A stretch of 55,043 nucleotides of DNA, taken from contig CANRCE010000004.1 of the NCBI GenBank assembly GCA_947629035.1, positions 1 through 55,043 of the forward strand, read 5' to 3'. The position numbers and the translations under genes are program-made. This DNA comes from an uncultured Bacilli bacterium (lineage in GTDB: Bacteria > Bacillota_I > Bacilli_A > RF39 > UBA660). The notes beneath the pieces are model-generated. The model was not told where the DNA came from. It was given only the letters and a program-made list of their open reading frames with translations, and did not search any database. This document shows, in pieces, positions 29,964-33,496 of the stretch (positions within the stretch are counted from its first letter, which is position 1; the number at the start of each line of letters is the position of its first letter).

Positions 29964-32018
29964 TTATTTTTCCATTTTTTCTTTAGCATTTCTCATTTCT
30001 AATGTTGCTTCATTAATTGCATCATCAATACTTTTAACATCATCTAATATCATACTATATCCAATCGAAGCTCCAAAGCCATATGGTAATTCTTTTAATT
30101 CTTTATATATTTTTCTAGTATAAGCTACTACTTTTTTCTCATCATATCCTACCATATAGATTAAGAATTCATTACCATCAGTTCTAATAATATCTGTATT
30201 TGGCTCTTGGTTTACAATTAAAATACTAGCTGCTTTTTTAATAACATTATCTCCCTCTTCATGACCATGATTATCATTTATATATTTAATATTATTTAAA
30301 TCTACCACTACAAAACTTTGAGGATAAATAACATTTTCTTCCCAATTTTTTATATTATAATTCAAATAATTTCTATTTTTTAAAGATGTCATAACATCAA
30401 TAAATTTTAATTTTTCATCTTTACGCATAATATTTATCTTTTTTCTTCGTTTTTGAATTACAATTACCACAATTATAATAGCTAAAATAATAGCGCAAGT
30501 AATTAAAATTACTTTTAATGGTGCTCCAAGAACACTTATTGAACTTACATCATAATTAGTATTATATTTATAGGCATATTCTTTATAATTTACAGAAGAT
30601 ATATAATAACTAAATAATTTACTAAAAGTTTTATTTTTATTAACATCTCTAATAGCATAAGTATATTCTTTATTTAAAATACCAGTATAGACAATATTAT
30701 AATTAGCTAATTTTTTATTTTTATAATAATTATAAGTATATTTATCTAATACTAAAATAGAATTACTTGAAGCATTGCGAATTATCTCATCAGTATTATC
30801 ATAAGCTTTAATAGTTAAACCTAAACTACTAGCATAATCATAAAGATAAGTATTAGCTACCATTTCTATATTCATACCTTGTAAGCTTTTTAAAGAATCC
30901 ACTACCAAATCTTTTTTAGTTAATACCACATATTCTTCTTTAAATAAAGATGACGTATTAATAACATCACTATTTATTCCATTTAAATTAAAATTAGCAA
31001 ATACAACATCGACATCTCCTTGTGACATAGCTTGTTTTAATTTAGATATATTTTCATACTTAATAAATTTAAAATCAACATCAAATAAAGAAGAAAATTC
31101 ACTCAAATAATTAGATAAAACTCCTACAAACTCATTATTATGAGTATTTTCTAAAGGCATATTTACAACATAACCATAATTATAAGCTGACGCATTATAA
31201 CTCATCTTTTCTGATTCACTAATACCTTCGGCTTGGAAAAATAAATCAATAAAATTTTGTTTATATGATTCATCATAAAATTGATTTTTAAATTGTAATT
31301 GATACTTCTTCATAATATTTAAAAGAGTATTGTTATCATTTATAGTAAGAACATATTTCCTACTTAAATCATTTAAATGAAATACAATATTTAAATCATT
31401 TTCTAATATAAAATCTAAATAACCTAATTCTGGTAAAACAAGATACTCTATTTGTTTATTTTCTAAATCAGTTTTTAATGTCTTTATATCTTTATAAGTT
31501 TTATATGCTAAATTACTTCCTTCTGCTAAATAATAAGAAACATCAGCAATATCCGAAGATAAAATTCCTAAAGTTAAATCTTTTAAATCCGTAATTTCAT
31601 CATATTTTTTATTATTAACAGATACTATTACATACTTATCTTCATATAGTAATATATCTTTTTCTGTTAACTGCTCTTTAGTACTTAAAGAACGAAAGGC
31701 TATTTTCTTTAAATTTGATGGACTATCCGTATAATAAGATATTTTATTGAATTCAATATCATATTTATCAGTAAAATTTTTTAAATAATCAAAAAGAACA
31801 CCATTACCTTCTTGTCCAATTACAGGAACATCATTAAAAACACTTATATCAATAATATTATTAGTATTATCTTTTAACCATTTCTTTTCTAAAATAGAAA
31901 ATGAAGAACTATCTTTACTATAATTTAAAACAAAGATAATAAGACTTACTAAAAAGACAACTCCAATAATTGATAAAATAATAATTCGATTCGTTTTTTT
32001 ATTCTTCATAACAATCAC
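29964..32018 (-). CDS. Transmembrane GGDEF-domain protein with two periplasmic-binding-protein-like sensor regions
   Basis: Two SBP-like repeats, TM near residue 500, GGDEF fold with SLKNRNYLNYNIKNW, DLNNIKYINDNHGHEEGD, but RTDGNEFLIYM at the active site. Confidence 0.85.
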   Translation of the reverse strand: MIVMKNKKTNRIIILSIIGVVFLVSLIIFVLNYSKDSSSFSILEKKWLKDNTNNIIDISVFNDVPVIGQEGNGVLFDYLKNFTDKYDIEFNKISYYTDSPSNLKKIAFRSLSTKEQLTEKDILLYEDKYVIVSVNNKKYDEITDLKDLTLGILSSDIADVSYYLAEGSNLAYKTYKDIKTLKTDLENKQIEYLVLPELGYLDFILENDLNIVFHLNDLSRKYVLTINDNNTLLNIMKKYQLQFKNQFYDESYKQNFIDLFFQAEGISESEKMSYNASAYNYGYVVNMPLENTHNNEFVGVLSNYLSEFSSLFDVDFKFIKYENISKLKQAMSQGDVDVVFANFNLNGINSDVINTSSLFKEEYVVLTKKDLVVDSLKSLQGMNIEMVANTYLYDYASSLGLTIKAYDNTDEIIRNASSNSILVLDKYTYNYYKNKKLANYNIVYTGILNKEYTYAIRDVNKNKTFSKLFSYYISSVNYKEYAYKYNTNYDVSSISVLGAPLKVILITCAIILAIIIVVIVIQKRRKKINIMRKDEKLKFIDVMTSLKNRNYLNYNIKNWEENVIYPQSFVVVDLNNIKYINDNHGHEEGDNVIKKAASILIVNQEPNTDIIRTDGNEFLIYMVGYDEKKVVAYTRKIYKELKELPYGFGASIGYSMILDDVKSIDDAINEATLEMRNAKEKMEK

Positions 32019-33321: not shown

Positions 33322-33350
33322 TTGACAAATCGACAATATTCGATTATTAT
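33322..33350 (+). promoter_or_regulatory. Strong sigma-A-type promoter of a short RNA
   Basis: TTGACA (33322-33327), N17, TATTAT (33345-33350). Confidence 0.75.
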
Positions 33351-33356
33351 ATAAAT

Positions 33357-33455
33357 CACCAATTCAAATTTTAGACGAATTGGTGCTAGTATCACACTAG
33401 CCAACCCCTTTTTATTCTTTTTGGGAGATTGCTTAAATTAAGCAATCTCTTTTTT
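33357..33455 (+). ncRNA. Candidate ~100-nt small RNA with C-rich loop
   Basis: Promoter immediately upstream; CACCAATTC/GAATTGGTG (33357-33365/33377-33385), CTAGT/ACTAG (33386-33390/33396-33400), CCAA..TTGG enclosing CCCC, terminator 33425-33455; no ORF. Confidence 0.7.
33425..33455 (+). terminator. Intrinsic terminator of the candidate small RNA
   Basis: GAGATTGCTTAA-A-TTAAGCAATCTC followed by T6. Confidence 0.85.
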
Positions 33456-33465
33456 ATCTATATAC

Positions 33466-33496
33466 AAAAAAGAATAGCAATAATCACTATTCTTTA
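33466..33496 (-). terminator. Terminator of SASP gene
   Basis: AAAGAATAG/CTATTCTTT stem followed on minus by T-run. Confidence 0.7.

Follow-up and report, generated by a model that had tools for sequence, protein, structure and literature searches.

The window, the 55,043-nt stretch of DNA from an uncultured Bacilli bacterium analyzed here, carries a gene for a stand-alone RNA of ~100 nt, and comparison of this gene with its relatives leads us to conclude with good confidence that it encodes a family-specific, trans-acting sRNA that pairs inside the rsmH mRNA. The RNA gene, its conservation, its complementarity to rsmH, and the co-evolution of the two are established by these comparisons. A search of Rfam 15 returned no family for this RNA at gathering or relaxed thresholds, and the window gave no gathering-level hit. 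We consider this a genuine, previously uncatalogued sRNA family, apparently with a more specific target than the original prediction proposed.

The predicted architecture of the gene was largely recovered. A sigma-A-type promoter is present on the forward strand where it had been called (33322–33350), with TTGACA at 33322–33327, a 17-nt spacer, and TATTAT at 33345–33350. A scan of 2 kb returned 14 promoter-like sites, a number at chance level, and ranked this one first; the promoter is kept in place across relatives as TTGACA and TAKTAT, and transcription probably starts near 33357. The 100-nt RNA has a fold energy of −30 kcal/mol (z = −5.9 versus shuffles). Its first hairpin, HP1 (33357–33385, forward strand), pairs CACCAATTC (33357–33365) with GAATTGGTG (33377–33385) around the loop AAATTTTAGAC, as had been proposed, and rests on the predicted fold, covariation, and co-evolution. 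The second, HP2 (GCTAGTATCACACTAGC, 33385–33401, forward strand), is the expected CTAGT/ACTAG hairpin, formed by (G)CTAGT at 33385–33390 and ACTAG(C) at 33396–33401, and is nearly invariant in the alignment of relatives. It is followed on the same strand by the single-stranded seed CCAACCCCTTTTTATTCTTTTT (33401–33422), antisense to rsmH codons by comparative evidence; here CCAACCCC is unpaired in the predicted fold and the C-rich CCCCTTTTTATTC is exposed, as claimed. An intrinsic terminator at 33423–33455 (forward strand) ends the gene, with a stem of 13 pairs rather than the 12 originally counted, plus a T run; this stem differs strongly between genera. The motif CAGGGG occurs in 106 of 138 sRNA terminators despite the stem variation and is absent from 32, and a contact with CCCC is possible. 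The one predicted element that did not hold up is a short CCAA/TTGG stem, which is absent from the predicted fold and lacks its TTGG half in most relatives, leaving three hairpins rather than four. As anticipated, there is no plausible ORF in the sRNA (the open frames are only 20–36 aa), and the gene converges on a SASP gene (PF00269) with a separate terminator hairpin, located outside the sRNA at 33459–33495 on the minus strand. Elsewhere in the window, a protein with a GGDEF domain (PF00990) is encoded at 29964–32018 on the minus strand.

Several searches place this sRNA in ~90% of the genomes belonging to the window's family. A DNA search found it as a strong match in over 30 of the family's genera, with no full match in any other group, and two targeted searches of further family genomes recovered the sRNA in 27/30 and again in 27/30. 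The covariance model was positive in 18 of 18 family genomes and in 0 of 129 other genomes of the same class, and a plasmid collection gave no sRNA match. A scan of named genomes gave at least 119 stretches, nearly all from gut metagenome assemblies, whose names include Bacilli, Tenericutes, Mollicutes, and Mycoplasmatota, with one Candidatus Pelethosoma. This last scan demanded an exact core and so carries no information on core variability, a restriction that was applied neither to the DNA search nor to the two targeted searches. Some genomes have additional copies: the window's own genome has a second, diverged copy (G000:C24:5432-5520; L031, L351) with a different 5′ hairpin and the seed GACCCCTTTT, one genome has a tandem sRNA gene pair (L075:5052-5306), and G074 has a truncated second copy (L279).

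Across these relatives, ~36 nt are nearly invariant in more than 100 genomes, comprising HP2 and the strand YCRACCCCTTTTTATTC. Covariation is found in HP1 and the terminator, and the core GCTAGTATCACACTAGYCRACCCCTTTTTATTC is almost unchanged. The covariation check called for by the original prediction was positive: HP1 pairing is kept via two-sided changes (UA to AU and CG to UA) plus GU changes, and the HP1 loop varies while the stem pairs persist. The combination of its own promoter and terminator, no ORF, and a covariation-supported structure is that of a trans-acting sRNA. The gene is most often divergent from recG (72/125 loci) and convergent with a pyruvate:ferredoxin oxidoreductase gene (39/127 loci). 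A cis role with a conserved neighbor as target was considered and rejected, as the window's neighbors differ from this arrangement.

Antisense matches to the seed recurred inside rsmH. In the rsmH alignment of relatives, unusual codons are found at AAAARGGGG...TTCGCC; the AAAARGGGG segment complements the seed, the TTCGCC segment complements AGGCGAA of HP1, and the two contacts lie in antiparallel order with HP2 between them. The 3′ side of HP1 reads AGGCGAATTGG in most relatives, matching rsmH, and AGACGAA in the window. When codons were scanned across the whole of rsmH, the strongest biases were those for TTC, GCC, and AAG/AGG (log10 p of −17, −14, and −12), all three located in the pairing site and present only in genomes with GGCGAA in HP1. 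Among 76 genomes, TTCGCC was found in 41 of the 51 with GGCGAA in the sRNA and in 0 of the 25 without (p = 2 × 10−12), a pattern repeated in a second batch of 30 genomes; 10 of the 51 lack TTCGCC. Of 43 Phe codons at this site in the GGCGAA group, 42 are TTC, and G074 carries a compensating pair, AAGCGAA in the sRNA with UUCGCUU in rsmH. Most occurrences of the pattern AGGGGN{2,9}TTCGCC across genomes of the family are within rsmH, and in some genera the rsmH site is an exact complement of the 18-nt module described below.

Compared with synonymous randomizations of rsmH, both contacts were stronger than expected, with a mean z of −2.1 for the seed duplex (47/51 genomes) and −2.3 for the HP1 duplex (48/51). 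Seed complementarity is partly expected from the A-rich codons for KRIKRG, for which this randomization allows, and which codons are used also depends in part on whether F or Y precedes A in the protein. When the rsmH pairing site was left out of tree building, 6.2 of 7 independent pairs changed in the same direction and 0 in the opposite one (sign test, p ~0.03), and 5.4 of 7 and 0 did so with more genomes; with few supported branches, this tree evidence is consistent but limited. Some lineages without GGCGAA extend the other contact instead: in G005, G061, G082, and G088, a Trp codon lengthens pairing with the seed, and two of these lineages reach −35 kcal/mol. An inserted residue (GAG GGG TTC) preserves the reading AGGGGTT in some genomes. 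The window's own genome has a seed duplex of −21.2 kcal/mol (z = −2.2), while the HP1 half is gone; its rsmH follows mraZ, both confirmed by Pfam, and the small gene downstream is FtsL-like by position only, with no Pfam match. In G018, G012, G024, and G073, the rsmH complementarity is nearly all lost and the core is unchanged, so rsmH is not the sole reason for core invariance; these lineages must have other targets, a protein partner, or recent losses. Selected complementarity to a separately encoded mRNA is again as expected of a trans-acting sRNA. The original suggestion of a trans-acting regulator is therefore well supported by HP1 covariation and co-evolution with the mRNA; its further suggestion that the C-rich loop pairs with Shine-Dalgarno sequences is not, since the partner found lies inside the coding part of rsmH, where both the C-rich strand and the HP1 loop make contact.

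These comparisons suggest a mechanism in which the sRNA, once transcribed, would form a duplex with rsmH mRNA in the cell. The single strand ACCCCUUUUUAUUCUUUU would pair antiparallel with the mRNA ~40 codons downstream of the rsmH start (AAAAGAAUAAAAAGGGGUU...UUCGCCUUU). A second contact would be made in most genera by the HP1 loop AAAGGCGAA, and HP2 would loop out between these contacts. The genome from which the window comes has lost the HP1 contact and retained the seed contact. The most likely effect, we infer, would be to lower rsmH output, and possibly that of the mraZ-rsmH-ftsL operon, through either mRNA decay or blocked elongation.

It is possible, and deserves appreciable weight even though we favor pairing with rsmH, that this sRNA is instead a hub that acts mainly by covering Shine-Dalgarno sequences with its C-rich strand, with rsmH one of many targets. 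In family genomes, AAAAAGGGG is clearly commoner 3–11 nt upstream of ATG than the reversed pattern; the leader AAAAAGGGGTGGATTATATG of a CotZ-like spore-coat gene is identical in three genera (L205, L206, L207), perfect 18-nt matches are found at a ribosome site in G026 and, in G030, where the gene downstream of rsmH begins, and core invariance despite a lost rsmH site is compatible with several targets. However, AAAAAGGGG is itself usable as a Shine-Dalgarno sequence, and an excess before ATG is thus expected without any sRNA; among the genes read, the only recurring leaders were those of the CotZ-like gene (three genomes) and a ParB-like gene (two genomes). We accordingly rejected the seed as a general Shine-Dalgarno blocker, the excess being real but confounded with Shine-Dalgarno function, and an antisense sRNA acting in trans, not primarily via such sites, is the best-supported reading.

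We think it unlikely that the invariant core is mainly an RNA-binding-protein site or processing signal, common to host and phage RNAs, to which rsmH pairing is secondary. Near invariance of ~36 nt in so many genomes would fit such a signal, as would recurrence of the 18-nt module in phage loci behind unrelated hairpins, but the module also complements the rsmH site, exactly in some genera and with selection on synonymous codons, and the present data implicate no protein. Far less credible still is that the rsmH codons go with the sRNA loop merely by coincidence of phylogeny, or because of some DNA or codon signal in rsmH that has nothing to do with the sRNA. Fully supported independent pairs are few (7), and the codon preference accompanies an amino-acid difference; against this, each trait changed 15–22 times on the trees without an opposite pair, both segments, though separate, are complementary to the sRNA in the antiparallel order that pairing requires, and the pattern recurred in the second batch and in the compensating change of G074. 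An rRNA partner was also considered and rejected, with E. coli rRNA as stand-in: the duplex of the core with it was little better than those of five shuffled cores.

A second complement of the core was found in the leader of an HTH gene located after ppdK in four genera (L339, L340, L341, L034). This complement is 27 nt long, has one A for G in three genera, and overlaps the 5′ arm of a hairpin that is terminator-like in three; the sRNA could relieve termination in this leader. We rejected the HTH-gene leader as the cause of core invariance because the gene is found in few genomes and is absent from most.

The same core sequence is also found in gut phages. In two related phages it immediately follows a tRNA-like 3′ end, within noncoding DNA ahead of terminase, and one phage copy lies within a contig of family genome G004. 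A phage noncoding region (L171:7400-8290, L032:500-1180) spans several hundred bases and contains tRNA-like elements, with one Rfam tRNA hit spanning 149 bases, missed by ARAGORN. The bare 18-nt module ACCCCTTTTTATTCTTTT (33404–33421 of the window, forward strand) had 30 exact hits in a viral collection versus 7 for its reversal. By reading of the loci, ~18 of the 30 are noncoding, and the remainder are coding or unclear. At noncoding loci (among them L423, L425–L427, L430, L431, L436, L437, L442, L444, L446, L447, L449, L450, and L452), a hairpin lies just upstream of the module and a hairpin or terminator downstream, often behind TATAAT; the elements examined are preceded by a sigma factor or regulator gene and followed by terminase or portal genes. 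Based on relatives in family genomes (L032, L037), the module-bearing phages probably infect the window's family. The module is in the sense of the host sRNA, suggesting that targets are shared rather than the sRNA titrated. We tentatively propose, with slightly more doubt than belief, that phage sRNAs made from late promoters copy the host seed behind their own hairpins, bind rsmH mRNA, reduce the operon containing rsmH and the ftsL-like gene, and so restrain division in late infection; the shared antisense word would then constrain RsmH codons and even amino acids.

If correct, these findings assign to a large gut family, known mainly from metagenomes, a regulatory RNA whose target can be tested, and offer an example of an sRNA-mRNA contact readable from codon choice alone, with two segments changing along with the sRNA. 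RsmH (MraW) carries out a methylation that modifies the decoding region of the ribosome, and its gene is part of the mraZ-rsmH division operon. Loss of rsmH alters sporulation-related translation in Bacillus subtilis (PMC13317604). Control of rsmH by an sRNA in a SASP-bearing family would, if true, link ribosome modification, division, and sporulation, and the phage RNAs make a seed shared by host and phage directly testable.

Among known sRNAs, the nearest Rfam model is RsaE/RoxS (RF01820), with a covariance score of 21.8 bits against a threshold of 79. Like RsaE/RoxS and FsrA of Bacillales, the sRNA described here is stand-alone, with a C-rich unpaired stretch and then U-rich sequence, hairpins, and an intrinsic terminator. 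The C-rich regions of RsaE/RoxS and FsrA contact mRNAs (PMC8216469), and comparative evidence for pairing with rsmH points to the same use of the unpaired C-rich stretch here. Unlike in those sRNAs, the main partner site appears to be inside a coding sequence and a hairpin loop adds a second contact. RsaE/RoxS is regulated by Rex/ResD or SrrAB; the promoters of relatives, inspected by eye, showed no conserved operator. In Rhodobacter sphaeroides, StsR/UpsM exemplify sRNAs that control the division and cell wall (dcw) cluster (PMC8307010, PMC5089854); the likeness is an sRNA acting on this cluster, but the organism is unrelated, UpsM derives from the dcw 5′ UTR, and the partners of StsR are UpsM and the UTR rather than coding sequence of rsmH. 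The Qin prophage encodes DicF, a phage-borne sRNA that pairs with the host division mRNA ftsZ (PMC12197685). Its target and sequence are different; a module in common with a host sRNA marks the phage RNAs described here, and their effect on division is only proposed. G-rich RNAs such as the RosA sponge and RsaI (RsaOG) titrate C-rich sRNAs (PMC8216469), whereas the complement found here sits in the HTH-gene leader. The kind of regulator, a trans-acting base-pairing sRNA, is thus a known one; what would be new is that it contacts its mRNA at two points within a coding sequence and has its seed in common with phages.
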